A stretch of DNA of 40,465 nucleotides from Bacteroidota bacterium (GTDB lineage: Bacteria > Bacteroidota > Rhodothermia > Balneolales > Balneolaceae), in the NCBI GenBank assembly GCA_009926145.1, contig RFPJ01000002.1:1-40465 (forward strand). The letters are read 5' to 3'. The notes under the pieces are model-generated. The model was given only the letters and a program-made list of their open reading frames with translations, was not told the DNA's origin and made no database searches. The translations under genes and the position numbers were made by a program. Below, piece by piece: positions 10,164 through 36,643 of the stretch; the stretch's first letter is position 1, and the number at the start of each line of letters is the position of its first letter.

Positions 10164-11213
10164 ATGAACTATCATCTGATTACCGGTGGATGCGGATTTG
10201 TAGGACGCAATTTTGTTAAGAGAATCAATCAAACCACCCAAGATACCTTATTGGTCATTGACGATTTAACCGTTGGCACCCACCCTAGCGAGTGGTTGCC
10301 CGAAGGAACCCCTATCCACAAAGAAGGCAATGTTGAATACTTTGGTGCGGATAAAAGAATCATATTTATCAAAGAAGATATTCGGTCTATTCTAAATGGT
10401 CTGATCGAACGCGAGGATTATCTCTCAGAATTTTTCAACATCGACATAGAGCATTTTACCGATGTGTTTCACTTTGCCGCCATTGTAGGAGGTCGAGCCA
10501 CTATTGATGGCGATCCAATGAAAGTAGCCCTAGATTTAGCCATTGATGCGCTCTTTTTCCGCTGGATTTGCCTTCATAAACCCAATCGCGTCCTCTACCC
10601 TAGTTCTAGCGCAGCGTATCCGGTTGACCTTCAAACCGAATCTGATGCCATAGCATTAAGCGAGTCGGACATCGATTTTAAGAAAATGGGTCAACCTGAT
10701 ATGACCTATGGATGGACTAAGCTAACGGGTGAATATTTAGCTTCTATCGCAGCATCTCATTACGGAGTCTCTGTTACTTGCATTCGACCTTTCTCAGGTT
10801 ATGGTGAAGATCAAGATTTGAGCTATCCCGTACCAGCTATTGCAAGAAGAGCCGCATTACTCGAAAACCCATTTGAAGTATGGGGCACAGGCAAGCAGGG
10901 ACGTGATTTTGTACACATTGAAGATGTAATGGATTGCACCCTGCTAGCGATGGATCATATTAAAGATGGGCGTGCCATCAATATTGGCTCAGGTAAACTA
11001 ACTTCCTTTTTAGATCTAATTGAAGTGTTTACTTCATTTGCAGGATACACTCCTGAGATTAAACCATTGCTAGACAAGCCTGTAGGTGTACATTCTCGCT
11101 ATGCCAACATGGACTATGTTTCCGATGTACTCAATTGGAAACCTAAATTAAGCCTAGAGCAGGGAATGCGCCGCGTGTATGATGTTGCCGTATCCAAGTA
11201 TATGAAATTATAG
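10164..11213 (+). CDS. NAD-dependent epimerase/dehydratase (extended SDR, sugar-nucleotide)
   Basis: 349 aa; ITGGCGFVGRNF Rossmann motif, YGWTK (YxxxK) active site, C-terminal LNWKPKLSLEQGMRRVYD typical of UDP/GDP-sugar epimerases. Confidence 0.88.
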   Translation: MNYHLITGGCGFVGRNFVKRINQTTQDTLLVIDDLTVGTHPSEWLPEGTPIHKEGNVEYFGADKRIIFIKEDIRSILNGLIEREDYLSEFFNIDIEHFTDVFHFAAIVGGRATIDGDPMKVALDLAIDALFFRWICLHKPNRVLYPSSSAAYPVDLQTESDAIALSESDIDFKKMGQPDMTYGWTKLTGEYLASIAASHYGVSVTCIRPFSGYGEDQDLSYPVPAIARRAALLENPFEVWGTGKQGRDFVHIEDVMDCTLLAMDHIKDGRAINIGSGKLTSFLDLIEVFTSFAGYTPEIKPLLDKPVGVHSRYANMDYVSDVLNWKPKLSLEQGMRRVYDVAVSKYMKL

Positions 11214-22771: not shown

Positions 22772-24157
22772 CTATTCTGTAAAACCACCTAAGGTCATCT
22801 TCATAGGATCCAGCGCAGCAATAAGCTCTTGATCACTCAAGTCGGTCATTTCTTTGGCTACATCCATAAGTGGTCTATTTTCTGCATACGCTTTTTTTGC
22901 AATTTTGGCAGCTAGATCATAGCCAATGAGTGGATTAAGCGCCGTAACCAATATTGGATTTCTACCAACTTTATCGGCAATGACGTCTTCTCTCACAGTT
23001 AATATCGACACGGATTTATCTGCAAAATTACGAGCCGCATTGGCAAGTATTTCAATAGACTGCAATAAATTGTGTGCGACTACTGGTAACATAACATTAA
23101 GCTCAAAATTACCCGATTGTCCTGCTATGGTTATGGTGGTGTCATTTCCTATAACCTGAGCACAAACCATGGCAACCGACTCTTCAATCACAGGATTTAC
23201 TTTGCCTGGCATAATGGAAGAACCAGGTTGAAGCGCCGCTAATTGTACTTCTCCTAAACCGCTATTGGGGCCAGAGTTCATCCACCGAAGATCATTAGCC
23301 ATTTTCATCATACCCACGGCAACGGTCTTAAGCTGAGCACTCATTTCAACCGGTGCATCTACAGTAGCTTGAGCTTCAAAGTGGTTTTTGGCTTCTTTAA
23401 ATCTATAACCTGTTTCGATTGTCACTTCTTGGGCAAATAGTTCTCCAAATTTGGCATCTGTATTGATTCCCGTTCCTACAGCCGTTCCACCTTGAGGTAA
23501 CTCGGTTAACCGTTCTAAAGCATCTGTAATTCGATCAATACCTAAGCGCAATTGCCGTGAGTATCCACTAAACTGTTGAGCGATGGTAACAGGCATAGCA
23601 TCCATCAAGTGCGTTCTACCCGTTTTAACCACATGGGCATACTCAGCACCTTTCGCATCAAATGCAGAAGCTAGATATTCCAATGCCGGCAATAGTTGTT
23701 GCTGAATTTGTACCACGGAGGAAATTCGTATAGCTGTAGGTATTACATCATTAGAACTCTGCCCAAAATTTACATGATCATTAGGGTGCACGGGCGTCTT
23801 TAACGTAGGATTCTCCTCGTTTGCCACATGCGATACCACCTCGTTGGTATTCATATTACTCGAGGTTCCTGAACCTGTTTGAAAAATATCTATTACAAAT
23901 TCACTATCAAGTGAACCATCTATAATTTGTTTACAAGCCTGTTGTATAGCTTCGGATACTTCAGGATCCAGTAAACCAAGACTCAGATTCGCTTTCGCTG
24001 CAGATGACTTAATAATACCCAAAGCTTGTATGAAAGCACGATTAAAGCCAATACCACTAATTGGGAAATTATCGGCCGCTCTTTGAGTTTGAGCTCCATA
24101 TTTAGCATTCTGAGGAACCTTAATTTCCCCCATTGAGTCCTTTTCTATTCGAAACAT
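22772..24157 (-). CDS. fumC: Class II fumarate hydratase
   Basis: 461 aa; GSGTSSNMNTNEVV, GRTHLMDAMPVT, GSSIMPGKVNPV signature. Confidence 0.96.
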   Translation of the reverse strand: MFRIEKDSMGEIKVPQNAKYGAQTQRAADNFPISGIGFNRAFIQALGIIKSSAAKANLSLGLLDPEVSEAIQQACKQIIDGSLDSEFVIDIFQTGSGTSSNMNTNEVVSHVANEENPTLKTPVHPNDHVNFGQSSNDVIPTAIRISSVVQIQQQLLPALEYLASAFDAKGAEYAHVVKTGRTHLMDAMPVTIAQQFSGYSRQLRLGIDRITDALERLTELPQGGTAVGTGINTDAKFGELFAQEVTIETGYRFKEAKNHFEAQATVDAPVEMSAQLKTVAVGMMKMANDLRWMNSGPNSGLGEVQLAALQPGSSIMPGKVNPVIEESVAMVCAQVIGNDTTITIAGQSGNFELNVMLPVVAHNLLQSIEILANAARNFADKSVSILTVREDVIADKVGRNPILVTALNPLIGYDLAAKIAKKAYAENRPLMDVAKEMTDLSDQELIAALDPMKMTLGGFTE

Positions 24158-24175: not shown

Positions 24176-25303
24176 TTATACTTCTAGTTTTTTGGCATAC
24201 ATCCGGTAACGCTTATCGATTCGTGCCCCTAAACGCTCGGCCACATGAATCATCTCGGTATTGTTGTCTAACACCCAACTCAACTCGGATTCAACAAAAT
24301 TTCGTTCTAGTGCACGTTCAATAGTTCGTTGATGGAATAAAGCATCTATTCCTTTGCCCTGATACTCGGGAAGTATGCCCATAAGAGCGGTTCTGATACG
24401 ATTAATTTTGCGCTTACCCCACAGAAATTTTATAAATCCAAAGGGCAAAAGATTCCCATTCATGGTTTTGAAAACTTGATTTAAATCTGGTAAGGCGATC
24501 GAAAAACCCACAGGCTTGCCTTCCCACTCTGCTATATGGGCGAAATCATCATCTAGCACCATTTTAAATTCTTTGGCTAATCCACTTAATTCCTCTATGG
24601 TCAAGGGTAAAAACCCCCAATTATTCTTCCAAGCCTCATTGTAAATATCCCGCACTATTTTAACCTCTTCCGAAATACGCTTTAAGGATACGGCACGAAT
24701 GGTAATCTCTGGATATCTACGCATGATCATTGCTTTGGCTTTTCTCATACGATCGAAGTCTACACTTTCCTTATCTACCACAAAAGCTAATAAGTCTCTA
24801 ACCCCTGTATAGCCCGCATTTAAGGCTAATTTTTCATAGTAAGGCTTGGTATAAGGCATCATGATGTAGGGGTATTTATCAAAACCATCTACCAGAAAAC
24901 CCAAAATATCCATCATACCAGGATTGGTTGGGCCTAAGACTTCTTCCACCCCTTGTTCTTTTAACCAATCTTCCGCTACTCGAAACATTAAATCGGCGGT
25001 AGGCTGATGATCTATACATTCAAAAAAAGCAAAATGGCCCGTATTTAATCCATGTTGCTTGTTGAACCTATCATCAACCACAGCTGCAATTCTGCCAGCA
25101 GGTTTACCATTATGCTCTGCCAAAAACATGGCCATTCTGGCTTGCTTAAAAAATGGGTTTTTCTCGGTGTCTATTAATTTTTTTTGTTCAGATCGTAGGG
25201 GAGGAACAAAAAAACCATCGGTTGCATAGTGTTGATACGGAAATTCTACAAATTCCTTTTTTTCTTGGTCGGAACTTACAAAGGTTATACCACTCGATGC
25301 CAT
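24176..25303 (-). CDS. GNAT-like N-acyltransferase family protein; candidate bacterial ceramide synthase (bCerS)-type
   Basis: 375 aa; FPYQHYATDGFFVPPLRSEQKKLIDTEKNPFFKQARMAMFLAEHNGKPAGRIAAVVDDRFN; GPTNPGMMDILGFLVDGFDKYPYIMMPYTKPYYEKL; 7-nt gap after the SPT-like gene suggests translational coupling. GNAT-like call is strong; bCerS assignment is a hypothesis. Confidence 0.7.
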   Translation of the reverse strand: MASSGITFVSSDQEKKEFVEFPYQHYATDGFFVPPLRSEQKKLIDTEKNPFFKQARMAMFLAEHNGKPAGRIAAVVDDRFNKQHGLNTGHFAFFECIDHQPTADLMFRVAEDWLKEQGVEEVLGPTNPGMMDILGFLVDGFDKYPYIMMPYTKPYYEKLALNAGYTGVRDLLAFVVDKESVDFDRMRKAKAMIMRRYPEITIRAVSLKRISEEVKIVRDIYNEAWKNNWGFLPLTIEELSGLAKEFKMVLDDDFAHIAEWEGKPVGFSIALPDLNQVFKTMNGNLLPFGFIKFLWGKRKINRIRTALMGILPEYQGKGIDALFHQRTIERALERNFVESELSWVLDNNTEMIHVAERLGARIDKRYRMYAKKLEV

Positions 25304-25310
25304 GGCGTAC

Positions 25311-26546
25311 CTAGGAGACTAATGAATTTCCATTTTGATCAATAATTCCATGCTTCAAACCCACTTTACGGAATGCTTCGAGAATTCTGTCCAAATGTTC
25401 ATCGGTATGTGAAGCCATATAACTAGTTCTGAGTAACGATTGACCAGCAGGTACGGCTGGCGGAATGACGGCATTGGCATACACACCTGCTTCAAACAGA
25501 TCTTTCCAAAACTGGAAACACATCATCATCTCGCCTATTACAATGGGTATAATGGGTGTTTCTGAAGTCCATACATTAAAACCTAACTTACGAAGCTCGG
25601 TACGCATATAGGTTGAAATTTCATTTAATCGCGTTAACCTCCAAGGCTCTTCCTCCATAATATCCATAGCCTTCAAGACTGTAGCCACATTAGCAGGCGG
25701 CATAGATGCACTAAAGATGTGTGCAGGTGAGTGATGCCTTATGTATTCGATAACTTCTCGCTTACCAACTAAAAATCCTCCAAGGGAAGCAAATGATTTC
25801 GAGAAGGTTCCACTGACTAAATCAACCTGATCGAGACTTCCAAAAGTAGATGCCGAACCTCTACCTCCTTCTCCAATTACTCCAACAGCATGAGCATCAT
25901 CCAAATACAATCGGGCTCCAAATTCTTGTGATAACTGTATTAAATCGGGTATTTTCGCAATGGTACCCGACATAGAAAATACTCCATCACTAATAATGAT
26001 TTTACCAGCCTCAGGATCCGCTTTTTCTAATAGGCGTCGTAAATGATCCATATCATTGTGCTGATATCTCACTGTTTTGGCCACTGAACATTGAGTTCCA
26101 ACCACGATACAGGCATGATTGTCTTTATCAGAGAAAATGATATCGTTTCGTCCTGCGATCGTTTGAATGGATCCCTCATTGGTTTGATAACCGGTACTAA
26201 AAAGAACACAGGACTCTTTCTGCATGAATGAAGCCAAGCGATCTTCCAACTCTAAGTGAATATCAAGGGTACCATTTAAATATCGTGAACCTGTACAGCC
26301 TGTCCCATACTTTACCAATGCATTTTTTGCCGCTTCAATGGTTCTGGGGTCATTGGTTAAGCCCAAATAATTATTTGAGCCTGCCATAATAACTTCATTA
26401 CCTTCGATTTCGACAATAGTGCCATCAGTAGCTTCTAATGGCTTAAAATAAGGGTATAAACCCATTGCCTTAACCTCGTCTGCCTTGGTAAACCCAAAGG
26501 CCTTCTCGAAGATATCTGACCGTACTAAAGGAGTTGTTTCAGCCAT
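25311..26546 (-). CDS. Alpha-oxoamine synthase, serine palmitoyltransferase / cysteate fatty acyltransferase-like (PLP-dependent)
   Basis: 411 aa; SNNYLGLTNDPRTIEAAKNALVKYGTGCTGSRYLNGTLDIHLELE, DDAHAVGVIGEGGRG, GTFSKSFASLGGF (PLP lysine). The GTGC(A/T)GSR(Y/F)LNGT block looks more like SPT than glycine C-acetyltransferase; no tdh neighbour. Confidence 0.75.
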   Translation of the reverse strand: MAETTPLVRSDIFEKAFGFTKADEVKAMGLYPYFKPLEATDGTIVEIEGNEVIMAGSNNYLGLTNDPRTIEAAKNALVKYGTGCTGSRYLNGTLDIHLELEDRLASFMQKESCVLFSTGYQTNEGSIQTIAGRNDIIFSDKDNHACIVVGTQCSVAKTVRYQHNDMDHLRRLLEKADPEAGKIIISDGVFSMSGTIAKIPDLIQLSQEFGARLYLDDAHAVGVIGEGGRGSASTFGSLDQVDLVSGTFSKSFASLGGFLVGKREVIEYIRHHSPAHIFSASMPPANVATVLKAMDIMEEEPWRLTRLNEISTYMRTELRKLGFNVWTSETPIIPIVIGEMMMCFQFWKDLFEAGVYANAVIPPAVPAGQSLLRTSYMASHTDEHLDRILEAFRKVGLKHGIIDQNGNSLVS

Positions 26547-26660
26547 TAACTAAAATTCAGTTAGGTGGTAAATGTTGTAATATAATTAGTCTGCACAAGG
26601 TATCAAATAAAGCTGGGTGCTTCGTGCTGATCTCTAGTATAGTTTTACAAATGAACTATC

Positions 26661-27920
26661 TCATGAAACTTGATAAAGATACTGAATATATTGCTTCGTC
26701 ACCCTATTCCATGTGAATTTTTCCCAAACCGTTATAAACGCTTGATAAGCTAATTGTTCGGGTTGCTTGGCACGTATTACCATATCTATATACTTAACAT
26801 ACTCATCGATTTGTTTAGTAGGCACTTTATACCCATTAACGCCTTGCTCAACAACATCCCTCATCCCCTCCAAATCGGCACAAAGTACGGGAGTAAAATG
26901 GATATTAGCTTCTAGTAGAACGATGCCAAAACCCTCCATATCACCTGGTACCTTTATATTGGGCATCAGAAATAGATCGGATGCCGCATAGGCCTTGTGG
27001 ACTACATCATCTTCTTGTCTACCGAGTACGTAAACCCTAATTCCTTTTTCCCGAAACAAAGATGCTTTTTGCTTCAAAATATCCTGTATTCGTTGATGTT
27101 CGGGCCCATCTCCAATGAGTATATAATTACAGGCATCATCCATTTTGGGCAACACTTCTTCTATAAACCAGGCATGCCCTTTTCGTTTGACTTGCCTACC
27201 CACCGAAAGTAATAACGGCTCAGCGCCAAGGGATATACCAAGTTGACGTTCCAATCCAGCTCTAGCCGAAGCTTTTAATTCTTTAATCCTACGCTTTGCC
27301 TGCGCTTCTGGTATCTCTAGGAGTTGTTTAACGCTATCCACTGACCATTCACTCTCACCCTTAGGAAGAAAATCGTTCACATGAATACCATTGGGTAAAG
27401 CAACCCCTTTGCTTGCCAACATCCCCCTTTCAATACTGGCTTCTCGGGTTGCCGAGGATACTGAAATGACTCCATCAATGGCTTCAAATATCTTTCGGAC
27501 ATGTCGCTGGTACCACCCATAAGGCATGGTTACATCCTGCCCATGATTAATGGTAACCATGGGAACATCGACCCGTTTTCTAAGCCATCGTGCCATACTT
27601 GCTGTTACCATCGATGAAAAAAGGATCACATCTGGTTTCCACTCCCTTTCAACCCGAGGAAGTAAAATTAGGAGCTTTAATAGAAAGCCGATGGTCTTTA
27701 TTTCAATCCCTTTCCATGCTGTTTTTTGGACAAGGCACCGCAGCTGAATGGATGAATCCTGCGCAAGGGATTCGGATAGTTGCACACTCACTCTTTGCAT
27801 CCCCCCCATGTTATCCAGGGGCGCATCTTCTGGCGGATGTGAATGAGAGATGTAAAGTACGCGTAACGGACCCTTAGAGCTCTCATGTTGCCTTCTATCT
27901 GAATGAATTTTTTGGGTCAT
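26661..27920 (-). CDS. Glycosyltransferase family 4
   Basis: 419 aa; VLYISHSHPPEDAPLDNMGGMQRVSVQL; LLSVGRQVKRKGHAWFIEEVLPKM; GFGIVLLEANIHFTPVLCADLEGMRDVVEQGVNGY. Confidence 0.92.
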   Translation of the reverse strand: MTQKIHSDRRQHESSKGPLRVLYISHSHPPEDAPLDNMGGMQRVSVQLSESLAQDSSIQLRCLVQKTAWKGIEIKTIGFLLKLLILLPRVEREWKPDVILFSSMVTASMARWLRKRVDVPMVTINHGQDVTMPYGWYQRHVRKIFEAIDGVISVSSATREASIERGMLASKGVALPNGIHVNDFLPKGESEWSVDSVKQLLEIPEAQAKRRIKELKASARAGLERQLGISLGAEPLLLSVGRQVKRKGHAWFIEEVLPKMDDACNYILIGDGPEHQRIQDILKQKASLFREKGIRVYVLGRQEDDVVHKAYAASDLFLMPNIKVPGDMEGFGIVLLEANIHFTPVLCADLEGMRDVVEQGVNGYKVPTKQIDEYVKYIDMVIRAKQPEQLAYQAFITVWEKFTWNRVTKQYIQYLYQVS

Positions 27921-29095
27921 TAAGTACTCTTTTTATGCTTTATGGCGTATTCATCAATGACCTTATAATAGTCTTCAACCAGAGCTTGATTAATGGAACT
28001 CCACTGATAATTCATCGCCATAACCCTAGATTGCTGAGCCATTTGCTCTCGCAAACTCGCATCTTCAATTAAAATCCTGAGCTTGGTAATAAAATCCGAT
28101 AAATCACCAGCTTTAGCCAAAAATCCGTTTTGCCCGTCAATGACCAGCGAGCGGGATCCAATGGCATCAGCCACTAAACAAGGCAATCCGCTCGACATGG
28201 CTTCAAGGGTAACATTTCCAAATGTTTCGGTAAAGGAAGGAAACAAAAATATATCCGAACTTGCGTATGCCCGAGCGAGATTATCACCGCTGCAAAATCC
28301 TGTGAAAATTCCATTGGGTAATAATTTTTGAGCTTCCTTCATAGCAGGCCCATCCCCAACTACCATAGCGCGCACCTTCGGGAACTCTTTTTGAAGGCTT
28401 CGCACACTTTCTATATAGGTTCGAAGCTCTTTTTCCCAAACCAAACGAGACACAAAACTCACCACCAATTCATCGTCTGCAATTCCCACCGAACGTCTCC
28501 ACTCTTCATCTCTTTTTTTCGGGTTGAAACTGTCCGTATCAATTCCACGAGCCCATATTTTCATGTGACCATGTATGTGCTCTCGAGCCAGTTCATCGAT
28601 CATGGATTGCGTGGGTACATAGGTTCTTTCACACTGAGGGTAAAACCATTGCATCATTTTCTTAAAAGGCCATTTAACTGGCCCTAAGAATAATTTGTAG
28701 TAATCTACATAACTCAGGAAATGGGTGTGATACGAACTTACAACAGGAACTTTATGCTTCTTTGCCCATTTCAGAGCACCAATACCCAAACCATCTGGGG
28801 TCGCTATATGAATAAGGTCCGGGTTGAAAGCGGCCAGTTCTCGGCGATCTTTTCTAGGGAAATGGGTGGCCACTCGATATTCTTTCCTTCCCGGAACGGG
28901 CATGGAAATTGAAGGGGTAACGATCAACTCCCCGGCATGGGGTACAATAGCAGGTTGTTGGCTACTGGGCGCGAAAATTTTCACCGCAATAGATTCCTGC
29001 TCTAAGTGATGAACCAGGCGATTGAGTGTCAAGGCCACTCCATCTCGTATATGATTATAATTGCCCGAAAATAAGGCAACTCTAAGTGGTTTCAT
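27920..29095 (-). CDS. Glycosyltransferase family 4 (mannosyl-/sulfoquinovosyltransferase-like)
   Basis: 391 aa; VALFSGNYNHIRDGVALTLNRLVHHLE, HIATPDGLGIGALKWAKKHKVPVVSSYHTHF, SFTETFGNVTLEAMSSGLPCLVADAIGSRSLVIDGQNGFLA. Stop and next start share a base (TAATG). Confidence 0.92.
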   Translation of the reverse strand: MKPLRVALFSGNYNHIRDGVALTLNRLVHHLEQESIAVKIFAPSSQQPAIVPHAGELIVTPSISMPVPGRKEYRVATHFPRKDRRELAAFNPDLIHIATPDGLGIGALKWAKKHKVPVVSSYHTHFLSYVDYYKLFLGPVKWPFKKMMQWFYPQCERTYVPTQSMIDELAREHIHGHMKIWARGIDTDSFNPKKRDEEWRRSVGIADDELVVSFVSRLVWEKELRTYIESVRSLQKEFPKVRAMVVGDGPAMKEAQKLLPNGIFTGFCSGDNLARAYASSDIFLFPSFTETFGNVTLEAMSSGLPCLVADAIGSRSLVIDGQNGFLAKAGDLSDFITKLRILIEDASLREQMAQQSRVMAMNYQWSSINQALVEDYYKVIDEYAIKHKKST

Positions 29096-29250
29096 TCGGC
29101 AGTAAGATGTAGGTTATCGACTAACGGTGAATGTGTAATGGTTTACAAGCCGATGGCTTCTTTGTATTTTCTTCTTAGTATTATGTTAGTGAGAGGGAAA
29201 AACAAATGCTGTTTACTCGACAGACTAACAATCTTTAAATATACACATTT

Positions 29251-30252
29251 ATGAAAGCCTTTGTTACTGGTGGAACCGGTTTTGTTGGAAGCCATTTAGT
29301 AGAATCTCTTCTCTCTAATCCAAAAGTAGAGGAAACCAAAGCCCTTGTACGAACACAAGAAAAATGGCTTAAAGGCTTAGCCTATACCCCCGTTCATGGA
29401 ACGTTAGAGCAGATTGATGCCATAGGGCCGCATCTGGAAGGTATAGACGTTCTGTTTCATTGCGCAGCAATTCTACATGCCCCTAATTTGGAGAGTTTTA
29501 TACAAGCCAATGTGGATGCCACCATTCGACTGGTTGAAATGGCGGCTGAATTTGGGGTAAAAAATGTAGTCGTACTTTCCTCCCTTGCGGCCGTAGGCCC
29601 TTCAAATGCAGATGCCCATGCGCTTACGGAAGATTCTGCTATGCATCCCATAAGCGGATATGGCCGGTCTAAAATGATGATGGAGCAACGACTCCGAGAA
29701 CATTTTGAGCAATCAAATTCCTACCCCAATCTGAGCATTAAAATTCTACGACCACCAGCGGTGTACGGACCTCGTGAAACAGATATTTTTGGTCTTTTTA
29801 AAGCATTGAATATGAGAATAGCACCCATTATAGGCCCCTTTCAGCAAGAAAACCTTTCTCTTATTCATGTGAAAGATTTAGTAGAAGGAATTTGCAAGAG
29901 TATCAAGTGGACGACTCCTGGTATTCACACTTATTTCGTAGGGGGTGAAAAAGACGCTTATTCTTGGGAACAAATATTTTCAACCAGTGCGAATATTTTA
30001 GGTAAATCCTATCTGAAAATTCCCATCCCAAAGTCCCTTTTGTTTACGGTTGCCAGATTATCGGAACTAACCGCTCCAATGCTGAAGCGTTACCCCCCTT
30101 TAAACGTAGAAAAAGCTCAAGAGCTAAGTCAAAACTGGGTTTGTAACTCCGATAAGGCCCGAAGAGATTGGGGATACTCTCCTTCTGTTAATCTCGAAGA
30201 GGGCTTAACAAATACTTTAGGTTGGTATAAAAAACAAGGCTGGTTATCGTGA
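29251..30252 (+). CDS. NAD(P)-dependent epimerase/dehydratase (extended SDR, 3-beta-HSD-like); candidate CerR-type reductase
   Basis: 333 aa; MKAFVTGGTGFVGSHLVESLL, SGYGRSKMMMEQ (YxxxK), RPPAVYGPRETDIFGLFK. Extended-SDR assignment is strong; CerR role is a neighbourhood-based hypothesis. Confidence 0.85.
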   Translation: MKAFVTGGTGFVGSHLVESLLSNPKVEETKALVRTQEKWLKGLAYTPVHGTLEQIDAIGPHLEGIDVLFHCAAILHAPNLESFIQANVDATIRLVEMAAEFGVKNVVVLSSLAAVGPSNADAHALTEDSAMHPISGYGRSKMMMEQRLREHFEQSNSYPNLSIKILRPPAVYGPRETDIFGLFKALNMRIAPIIGPFQQENLSLIHVKDLVEGICKSIKWTTPGIHTYFVGGEKDAYSWEQIFSTSANILGKSYLKIPIPKSLLFTVARLSELTAPMLKRYPPLNVEKAQELSQNWVCNSDKARRDWGYSPSVNLEEGLTNTLGWYKKQGWLS

Positions 30253-30293: not shown

Positions 30294-31946
30294 ATGGATC
30301 AAAAAAATATCACCCCCATGATTAACCTGTTGGTTGGACTCCTTCTAGTTTTCACAACGGCCGACCTTTGGGCTCAGCGGTCACTTGAAGAAAACCCGCT
30401 CAACACCCCTTCGACTTCAAGCACTACAGAGGATACTGGAGTGGAATTCATTTCTGAGATGAATATCTCAAATGTGCGTACCATTTCTGCCAGTGCTAGT
30501 CATCTCTATGTGTTATCGGAAAGTGAAGGATTGGCCGTGTTTCGTATTCAACCCGGAAAAAAAGCACAATGGCTCTATACCAATAACGGCATGCAAAAGA
30601 GGGGCAGTATTATAGAAAGTGACATTCGCTTTGCCTATTTATATGGCAATAGCACCCGGCTGACAATTTTGGAACCCACCTCTGTTTTGGGAGTGTATTC
30701 GTCTACTTTTTTACCGAAAGAACCCTTAGGAATTGCAAGGGTAAGAAATTACGTGTATTTGGCCATGGGAGATCAAGGTTTAGGTGTATTAGATGTAAGT
30801 ACTCCCGAGAGTTTTGATTCGGAAGTCCAGACCATCGCCCATGAAGAACTTAAACGAGACCCCGTCTTGGATTTGGTATCTGTTCCAAATTCGCATCAAC
30901 TTTTTGTGTTAACTCCTGGTAATCTTCATCATTTTAGTTGGCCTTCCGATCAAGACACCCTTCAATGGGTAAATAAGATTGAAATCGACTCGAGCATACA
31001 ACAAATCTATTTGGTTGGTAATACTTTCTATGGTTCCAATAAAGATGGGTTTATGTTTCGCATCACTTCTCAAGGCTCAGAACTAATGGATATAGATTTG
31101 GGCGCACCTATTAGTAATATCACTCGGTTTGAAAGTGATTTATACCTTCAGGTTATCCATATGGGTGCATCAGAGTTATGGCGCTATCATCCAACCAAAG
31201 GACTACAAAGGTGGAAAAAAGATGCACAAGCCAATTATTTACTTACCGGTAATGATGCTCAACTCTGGTTACATGAATTTGGACTACTTGGGCAGCTTCG
31301 TCCGAAAGGAAGCCAAATTTCATCGGTATCGGATACCACCCATGCGGGGGTGGATAGAATGAAAACCTTGCCGTCCTCTTTATCTATTGTGCCCTATCCT
31401 CCTCAGGTTGTCCCCTACCCCTATCCTGTAATTTTAGGTATATCAACCCAAGAAAATTGGCCCAATAATGCGGTTCGTTTCAGTGTGAAAGATGCTCCTG
31501 CGGGTCTTCAGATTAAAGGTAATGGGATGTATTGGCAGCCCCAATTTAACCAGATAGGTATGCACCGCTTTCAAATCATTGCAACCACTTCTAATGGATT
31601 AATCGATAGCACCTTTATTCAAGTAGATGTTCCAAGCTTCAATGCTCCACCGCGCATGAGTCCTATTCGAACCAGTACTTTGGTAATGGGTGATGCCTAT
31701 GAAGTACGTTATACAGCCCTAGACCCAGAGTCTAGACATCAGGGCGCCTCTATGGTTAGATTCCTAGGCGTTGATTTGCCAGAGGGAGCCCGATTAGATG
31801 AAAAAACAGGACTACTGCAATGGACCCCAAAAGAAAAAGACTTGGGTAAACATCGCTTTAAAGTTATTGCTACCGATGCGCTTGGAGCGGCCAGCTCAGT
31901 GGATGTGGAACTTCAAGTGATTGATCTCCCAAGAGACAATGAGTGA
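30294..31946 (+). CDS. Predicted secreted protein with beta-propeller-like N-terminal region and two C-terminal putative Ig (He_PIG/cadherin-like) domains
   Basis: Signal peptide ...LLLVFTTADLWAQ; C-terminal repeats APAGLQIKGNGMYWQPQFNQIGMHRFQIIATTSNG and LPEGARLDEKTGLLQWTPKEKDLGKHRFKVIATDALGAASS. Confidence 0.75.
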   Translation: MDQKNITPMINLLVGLLLVFTTADLWAQRSLEENPLNTPSTSSTTEDTGVEFISEMNISNVRTISASASHLYVLSESEGLAVFRIQPGKKAQWLYTNNGMQKRGSIIESDIRFAYLYGNSTRLTILEPTSVLGVYSSTFLPKEPLGIARVRNYVYLAMGDQGLGVLDVSTPESFDSEVQTIAHEELKRDPVLDLVSVPNSHQLFVLTPGNLHHFSWPSDQDTLQWVNKIEIDSSIQQIYLVGNTFYGSNKDGFMFRITSQGSELMDIDLGAPISNITRFESDLYLQVIHMGASELWRYHPTKGLQRWKKDAQANYLLTGNDAQLWLHEFGLLGQLRPKGSQISSVSDTTHAGVDRMKTLPSSLSIVPYPPQVVPYPYPVILGISTQENWPNNAVRFSVKDAPAGLQIKGNGMYWQPQFNQIGMHRFQIIATTSNGLIDSTFIQVDVPSFNAPPRMSPIRTSTLVMGDAYEVRYTALDPESRHQGASMVRFLGVDLPEGARLDEKTGLLQWTPKEKDLGKHRFKVIATDALGAASSVDVELQVIDLPRDNE

Positions 31947-35602: not shown

Positions 35603-36643
35603 TTAGGTACGTTTTAGGTCTTGAACCTCTTTATTTACATACCAGGTGGTGGCCATCATTCCAAAACCTATGGTGATGTAATAGCTGATAATTCTCCATA
35701 AGAATAAGGCTAAACCAATGAAGGCTTCTCGTGAGATTAAGGGCCCTTGAAAGAGTACAAACAAACCTTCTACCCCACCACTTCCTCCAGGAGTAGGCAC
35801 CACAAGAAAGGCCAAATTCATGGCAAGGCTTCTGAGTACGGATAACAATTCAGGAGCAGGTAATAAGCTTAAAATAACAATTGGAGCTAAGGCTATACGA
35901 GCCAACCAGGACATGGTTGAATAGTAGAAGGCCTGTAAAATGAACCGAAATGGTTTACCTTTTAATTGATGTGCATATTGTTCGAGGTTAATGGCCTCGT
36001 GGTCAATTTTTTCTCTATATCTTCTTAAGAATGGTAATTTGGCAACCCATTTAATGATTTTGGAGATGGCAGCAGGGTTAATTAAAACCCCATACGCAAG
36101 CACCGAAGCATAGGATAGTAAGGCCACATAGAGTACCAGCATGGATGCCTCTCCTATAAACCCGACTTCTGGTGGTACTACATCAAGATAAATACCTGCA
36201 AACAGTAGAATAGGAATAGCAATAGCAAACCAAATTTGATCTAACAACACACTGTAAAGTATAATTGCCGTAGATTCACCCAACTTTAGTCCTTCCTTAG
36301 TCATGGCATAAGTAGCCATTGGGGCACCTCCTATGGTAGAAGGCGTAACGGCCGAAGTAAAATCCCAACTTAGTTGTACACGAAAAGCACCCCACCAGCT
36401 AATTGTTTTTTCGGATAGAAACCGGATTTTAGCGGCCGAGAACCATACACGTAAAAAAGAAACCACTAAGGCGATGACTAGACCAGGTAATCTTTTGGGT
36501 GCCAAATACTCTAAAATTCCAGGAGTATAGGTGTACCAAATAACCCCAGCCATGGTTACCAGGCTGAGTGATATAGAAAAGATCAGATACTTCTTTGAGA
36601 TGATCTGATTTGGACTATGTAAGGTATTGCGGTTTTGGTTCAT
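35603..36643 (-). CDS. YbhN/UPF0104 (LPG synthase TM-like) membrane protein
   Basis: 346 aa polytopic; FLRVWFSAAKIRFLSEKTISWWGAFRVQLSWDFTSAVTPSTIGGAPMATYAM and VVPTPGGSGGVEGLFVLF motif. Confidence 0.88.
   Translation of the reverse strand: MNQNRNTLHSPNQIISKKYLIFSISLSLVTMAGVIWYTYTPGILEYLAPKRLPGLVIALVVSFLRVWFSAAKIRFLSEKTISWWGAFRVQLSWDFTSAVTPSTIGGAPMATYAMTKEGLKLGESTAIILYSVLLDQIWFAIAIPILLFAGIYLDVVPPEVGFIGEASMLVLYVALLSYASVLAYGVLINPAAISKIIKWVAKLPFLRRYREKIDHEAINLEQYAHQLKGKPFRFILQAFYYSTMSWLARIALAPIVILSLLPAPELLSVLRSLAMNLAFLVVPTPGGSGGVEGLFVLFQGPLISREAFIGLALFLWRIISYYITIGFGMMATTWYVNKEVQDLKRT

Follow-up and report, generated by a model that had tools for sequence, protein, structure and literature searches.

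A run of four minus-strand genes and one divergent gene occupies positions 24176-30252 of contig RFPJ01000002.1 from a Bacteroidota bacterium of the family Balneolaceae (order Balneolales; assembly GCA_009926145.1) and is considered here as a candidate locus for sphingolipid biosynthesis. The window, that is the whole stretch of 40,465 nucleotides that was analysed, is contig C2 of a metagenome-assembled genome (MAG) of 1.4 Mb, 63% complete. An earlier note had described in this place two GT4 glycosyltransferases, an alpha-oxoamine synthase (AOS) of the serine palmitoyltransferase (SPT) type, a GNAT-like acyltransferase and a divergent extended short-chain dehydrogenase/reductase (SDR). The open reading frames, their strands and the Pfam class of each product were all confirmed:

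24176-25303, minus strand: GNAT-like acyltransferase, proposed member of the bCerS/CerS family, 375 aa (Pfam Acetyltransf_1)
25311-26546, minus strand: SPT-type AOS, 411 aa (Pfam Aminotran_1_2)
26661-27920, minus strand: GT4a, second GT4 glycosyltransferase, 419 aa (Pfam Glycos_transf_1/Glyco_transf_4)
27920-29095, minus strand: GT4b, retaining GT4 glycosyltransferase, 391 aa (Pfam Glycos_transf_1/Glyco_transf_4)
29096-29250, no strand: divergent intergenic region, 155 nt (from the coordinates)
29251-30252, plus strand: extended SDR, proposed CerR type, 333 aa (Pfam Epimerase, NAD-dependent epimerase/dehydratase)

The fine layout is also as described before. The two GT4 genes meet at a TAATG, where stop and start share one base, 7 nt (25304-25310) separate the AOS and GNAT genes, and the divergent gap to the SDR gene measures 155 nt. 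The gap between GT4a and the AOS gene is 114 nt. The promoters of both transcription units are presumed to lie in the divergent region; in a promoter scan of 29096-29250, promoter-like matches were no commoner than in shuffled sequence.

The alpha-oxoamine synthase and its two partners

Among NCBIfam models, the AOS scores best against that for CFB-group serine palmitoyltransferase (488 bits). In a sequence search of the PDB, its best solved match is the SPT of Sphingobacterium (398 bits), as compared with 216 bits for SulA (7u7h), 229 for CFAT (28eh), the homologue that uses cysteate, and 185-294 for BioF and KBL (glycine C-acetyltransferase). In a maximum-likelihood tree of 33 AOS proteins, the window enzyme groups with those of Balneolales and Rhodothermales (support 100/99), and the enzymes of Ignavibacteriae, Kryptonia and Aureispira are next to join this clade (95/94). 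The alignment shows that the lysine binding pyridoxal phosphate, the stacking histidine and the conserved Asp, His and Arg are kept, as Lys250, His144, Asp216, His219 and Arg373. Lys281 of SulA, an alanine in Spt, has been named as the residue distinguishing these two enzymes (PMC9304779). At this site the window enzyme has Ala280, within an Spt-type FSAS motif; FSAS, with its Ala, is found in all aligned Balneolales and Rhodothermales relatives and AKS, with its Lys, in every CFAT. As judged from its sequence, the enzyme is of the SPT type, and not BioF, KBL or CFAT/SulA. Its proposed role is to make 3-oxosphinganine from serine and an acyl thioester.

The earlier note had envisaged either an SPT or a CFAT at this locus, and had named a firm grouping with glycine C-acetyltransferase or BioF among the outcomes that would refute its reading. 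It may be imagined that a KBL- or BioF-type enzyme of amino-acid or biotin metabolism merely stands beside unrelated cell-envelope genes, considering that all these enzymes belong to one superfamily and that many NCBIfam AOS models match the window protein. However, the KBL/BioF proteins form a separate group (90/99) without the window enzyme, relatives carry separate KBL-like and other AOS paralogues, and conservation extends to the bCerS and CerR partners. The tree and the match scores rule out a KBL/BioF identity, and to explain the locus in this way would be far-fetched. The CFAT identity fails as well, since the enzyme lies outside the CFAT clade (100/100) and carries Ala280 instead of the lysine.

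The partners of the AOS were compared with known ceramide enzymes through their counterparts in other bacteria. The E. coli genes yghO (ECD_02850) and ECD_02852 are listed as counterparts of Caulobacter CC_1154, the ceramide synthase, and CC_1164, CerR, respectively (PMC9386255). The E. coli references used here were taken from the yghO cluster of a plasmid record (L078), assumed to be gene-equivalent to the strain of that study. The window GNAT is 34.9% identical to YghO over 373 aa (E 3e-76) and 34.5% identical to the Sphingomonas homologue. More generally, YghO and proteins whose genes adjoin SPT or lie close to it in Rubrobacter, Streptomyces, Aureispira, Sphingomonas and Roseomonas are 33-41% identical to it over its full length. 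With YghO as query, a single clear best match, the window GNAT or its orthologue, was retrieved from each of 23 Balneolales genomes; this gene shares a contig with SPT in 21 of them and sits on a short contig end in the other two. The predicted structure is a tandem GNAT fold (pLDDT 89.6). A fold search with this confident model returned tandem GNATs and no ceramide synthase, and the PDB sequence search gave weak matches to generic acetyltransferases only. The GNAT is proposed to belong to the bCerS/CerS family and to N-acylate the 3-oxo base.

Similarly, the window SDR is 33% identical to the SDR that is divergent from SPT in Aureispira, 27% to that of E. coli and 26% to that of Sphingomonas. 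It is the best match in the window genome for both the Aureispira and the E. coli queries. In the same comparison with SPT-linked SDRs, a sugar epimerase encoded elsewhere in the window (10164-11213) showed marginal similarity only. Among the 38 relatives, the best match of the Aureispira SDR shares a contig with SPT in 33; in one more, two contigs each carry part of the gene, and the other four are fragmented assemblies. With the E. coli SDR as query, the best match is on the SPT contig in 20 of 23 Balneolales genomes. The protein carries a GGTGFVG motif (Rossmann GxxGxxG) and a YxxxK motif, and no signal peptide is visible by eye in it (MKAFVTGGTGFVG). It would be of the CerR type and would reduce the 3-oxo group. 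Thus, the counterparts in E. coli and Sphingomonas relate the GNAT and the SDR to bCerS and CerR; the absence of such a relationship would have spoken against the earlier note.

Conservation of the cluster

A window-type SPT was found in 37 of the 38 relatives, the exception (G010) being an incomplete genome with a distant paralogue only, and a window-type GNAT in all 38. In MAGs of the same genus, including Balneola sp. SP292 and Balneolaceae UBA1514, the SPT gene is 90-92% identical to that of the window. The order GNAT-SPT-GT4-(GT4), with the divergent SDR gene and a gene for a secreted He_PIG protein, is syntenic in 20/20 extended regions from five families of Balneolales. GT4a is recognisable in 16 of these regions, replaced by another GT4 in one and missing in three. 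When the named Balneolales loci are counted for which 4.2 kb or more of upstream sequence is available (n=33), GT4b and the SDR are present in 33/33, GT4a in 27/33 and the secreted protein in 32/33. With one gene order in all the extended regions, and GT4b and the SDR in all these loci, the arrangement is not due to chance. Among relatives, identity is 75-92% for SPT as against 42-57% for GT4a, which indicates a tighter constraint on the core than on the second sugar step. The view that three ceramide activities sit together here is thus well supported by the SPT-type AOS, the bCerS-family GNAT, the CerR-type SDR and an order-wide synteny.

In Rhodothermales, only the SPT-GNAT pair persists, mostly in a parA-parB-DUF5683 neighbourhood, and both GT4 genes are absent from the locus. 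However, a gene for an unrelated glycosyltransferase, of class PF13528 in the one member scanned, immediately precedes SPT-GNAT in 11 loci (L119, L120, L132, L133, L146-L148, L151, L152, L155 and L156), where it apparently stands in place of the GT4 pair. Farther away, a divergent SDR adjoins SPT-GNAT in Aureispira and in one Ignavibacteriae locus, and SPT-GNAT-SDR forms an operon on plasmids of Rubrobacter (L073) and Streptomyces (L077), likely representing ceramide genes in Actinomycetota. The Rubrobacter operon lies near CRISPR genes and a gene resembling those of lipoteichoic acid synthases.

Three further genes of the window surround the cluster:

22772-24157, minus strand: fumC, into which the minus-strand run continues after 18 nt
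30294-31946, plus strand: secreted protein with a C-terminal putative Ig-like He_PIG domain (Pfam), 41 nt downstream of the SDR gene
35603-36643, minus strand: LPG_synthase_TM/flippase-like membrane protein, about 5 kb from the cluster

The link of the secreted protein to the cluster is one of association only; it could belong to lipid handling. The membrane protein weakly matches a glucosaminyl-phosphatidylglycerol flippase model, and regarding it as a possible lipid exporter is speculative.

Proposed pathway and the sulfonolipid question

What is directly seen is which genes are present, where their products fall among known families, which active-site residues are kept and how far the synteny extends. 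Together, these observations make it probable, on sequence evidence, that the locus serves Balneolales for the synthesis of dihydroceramide and probably of a glycosphingolipid. The catalytic steps, the acyl carrier, the identity and order of the sugars, and export are all deduced from them. In the proposed scheme, SPT would use serine and a fatty acyl thioester, most likely on a housekeeping acyl carrier protein (ACP), to make 3-oxosphinganine, which the GNAT would N-acylate. The SDR would then reduce the ketone to yield dihydroceramide. With sugar nucleotides as donors, GT4b and then GT4a would glycosylate the C1 hydroxyl once or twice at the cytoplasmic face, and the glycosylated lipid would finally be exported to the outer membrane by some transporter.

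Glycosylation is suggested by several features. The top NCBIfam matches of GT4b are lipid glycosyltransferases, namely glucosaminyl-phosphatidylglycerol synthase (147 bits) and monoglucosyl-diacylglycerol synthase (134 bits), both below cut-off. Both enzymes have an EX7E motif (ETFGNVTLE in GT4b, EGFGIVLLE in GT4a), and a glycosyltransferase also precedes SPT-GNAT in some Rhodothermales. A type strain of Fodinibius (Balneolaceae) has two unidentified glycolipids (PMC12260241), which would agree with such a product. PDB searches with GT4a and GT4b returned generic GT4 enzymes only. It is plausible that the locus provides two conserved headgroup glycosyltransferases for a putative lipid acceptor, the first sugar being probably added by GT4b and the second by GT4a. 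Alternatively, SPT, GNAT and SDR would make ceramide, and the GT4 pair would act on diacylglycerol or on a lipid-linked polysaccharide, the sphingolipid being left unglycosylated or given another headgroup. The breadth of the GT4 family, the glycerolipid enzymes among the best matches of GT4b, the variability or loss of GT4a and the absence of both genes from the Rhodothermales locus would agree with such a division. On the other hand, GT4b stands beside SPT in every informative Balneolales locus, and a different glycosyltransferase often takes the same place in Rhodothermales. On balance, this alternative is rather unlikely.

Several points weigh against a glycosphingolipid cluster. Firstly, the AOS does not reach the curated SPT equivalog cut-offs (NF047600, 488 vs 640 bits; NF047599, 380 vs 500), which is why it is called SPT-type rather than SPT, although such a cut-off is an annotation rule and not a biochemical definition. 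Secondly, the order in which the CFAT clade and the SPT groups branch has no firm support in the AOS tree, and neither has the link to the Sphingobacterium SPT. Thirdly, ceramide as the acceptor of the GT4 enzymes is deduced from conserved gene order only, and GT4a is missing or replaced in some relatives. Fourthly, neither a dedicated ACP nor an acyl-ACP synthetase adjoins the cluster, as already noticed before. Searching the window genome yielded one ACP on contig C187 and a second, with an AMP-ligase, on contig C91; this last pair was set aside as a dedicated carrier because it lies among polysaccharide-type genes. The use of a housekeeping acyl-ACP is the simplest inference, unlike the case of Proteobacteria, which use the dedicated AcpR/AasR (PMC9386255). 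Fifthly, in the literature on Balneola sphingolipids and Balneolaceae glycolipids, only unidentified glycolipids were found, and no lipid identification for this organism or a close relative.

The last point concerns the choice between serine and cysteate. Salinibacter ruber makes sulfonolipids. In the genome of Salinibacter altiplanensis (L130), no CFAT/SulA orthologue was found, only an SPT-clade enzyme and a KBL-like AOS. The same was observed in Salinivenus iranica (L145). Given the Salinibacter case, serine specificity of the SPT clade to which the window enzyme belongs is presumptive. One may thus imagine that the window AOS uses cysteate and that the locus makes 3-ketocapnine and sulfonolipids, all the more as the tree does not separate the SPT groups from the CFAT clade in branching order. 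Nevertheless, Ala280 occupies the position where SulA needs Lys281, and the enzyme lies outside the well-supported CFAT clade. A C1 sulfonate would also take the place of the hydroxyl that the neighbouring glycosyltransferases would need. Finally, Balneolaceae have a different AOS, with that lysine, which is a true CFAT orthologue (28eh, 450 bits; SulA, 422 bits), found in 21/22 genomes of this family and in 0/16 genomes of the other Balneolales families. SPT-type and CFAT genes are both present in Gracilimonas mengyeensis DSM 21985, Rhodohalobacter sulfatireducens and Balneola sp. EhC07. The sulfonolipid reading of the locus, which the earlier note had kept alongside the sphingolipid one, is not supported by these results and appears very improbable. 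A broader version would be that the Ala-type SPT-clade enzyme is promiscuous, or has switched to cysteate, in Rhodothermia/Balneolia. The lysine rule separating sphingolipid and sulfonolipid synthases would then fail, since the searched genome of the sulfonolipid-making Salinibacter offers no other candidate enzyme. Such a switch is doubtful; if it were true, one N-acyltransferase and one reductase might serve both glycosphingolipid and sulfonolipid lines in Balneolaceae.

In the window genome itself, the CFAT/SulA orthologue is at 11891-12885 of contig C161 (5892-6886 of locus L212, minus strand). Set against same-genus copies, it is out of frame and misses about 226 bp, which cover residues 265-339 and with them the diagnostic Lys; it looks broken, either as a pseudogene or through an assembly fault. 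The CFAT gene neighbourhoods examined bear no resemblance to a sulfonolipid operon. Twelve of the 13 Balneolaceae genomes outside the window's genus (G009-G021) encode one or two extra, distant bCerS-like GNATs (24-30% identity), and a single bCerS-like GNAT is found in the window's genus and in the other Balneolales families. The extra GNAT may serve the sulfonolipid branch. In Rhodothermia, open frames of 1113 aa (L169/L203, G046:C210) and 1132 aa (L207, G049:C275) include an AOS domain, the first being 47% identical to Balneolaceae CFAT; these are possible CFAT fusion proteins.

Comparison with known systems

The glycosphingolipid reading invites comparison with Caulobacter crescentus, whose ceramide genes are spt, bcerS/cerS (CC_1154), cerR (CC_1164), acpR and aasR. 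The GNAT and SDR partners are homologous to those of the window, through the E. coli and Sphingomonas counterparts. In contrast, the window cluster has no adjoining ACP or acyl-ACP synthetase gene, and its SPT belongs to a different subgroup. Another difference concerns the reductase: the window SDR is devoid of a visible signal peptide, whereas Caulobacter CerR has been reported to be periplasmic (PMC11087976). If the reductase were periplasmic here too, oxidised ceramide, still awaiting export, would have to be the substrate of the cytoplasmic GT4 enzymes, which would conflict with the order of steps proposed above. As for the sugars, Caulobacter Sgt1 and Sgt2 are two GT4 enzymes acting sequentially on ceramide (PMC6445935). 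GT4b and GT4a are proposed to do likewise. The sgt genes (CCNA_00792/793) are, by their numbering, apart from the ceramide genes, whereas the GT4 genes of the window share a run with SPT. Another GT4 that acts on ceramide, from a member of the Bacteroidota, is BF9343_3149 of Bacteroides fragilis, which makes alpha-galactosylceramide (PMC9692976). SulA (7u7h) of Alistipes finegoldii and CFAT (28eh) belong to the same AOS superfamily as the window enzyme but to a separate clade, with Lys281 replaced by Ala in the window.

Judging from their genes, Balneolales very probably make sugar-headed sphingolipids, and genetic evidence for a complete sphingolipid synthesis, likely with sugar headgroups, is thereby extended to an entire order of Bacteroidota from marine and hypersaline habitats. 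Cultured strains carrying the cluster allow tests of ceramide glycosylation, of the location of CerR and of the choice between serine and cysteate. In known Bacteroidota producers, the genes for Spt, bCerS and CerR are not close together (PMC11334938); in Balneolales, by contrast, those for SPT, GNAT and SDR stand side by side.

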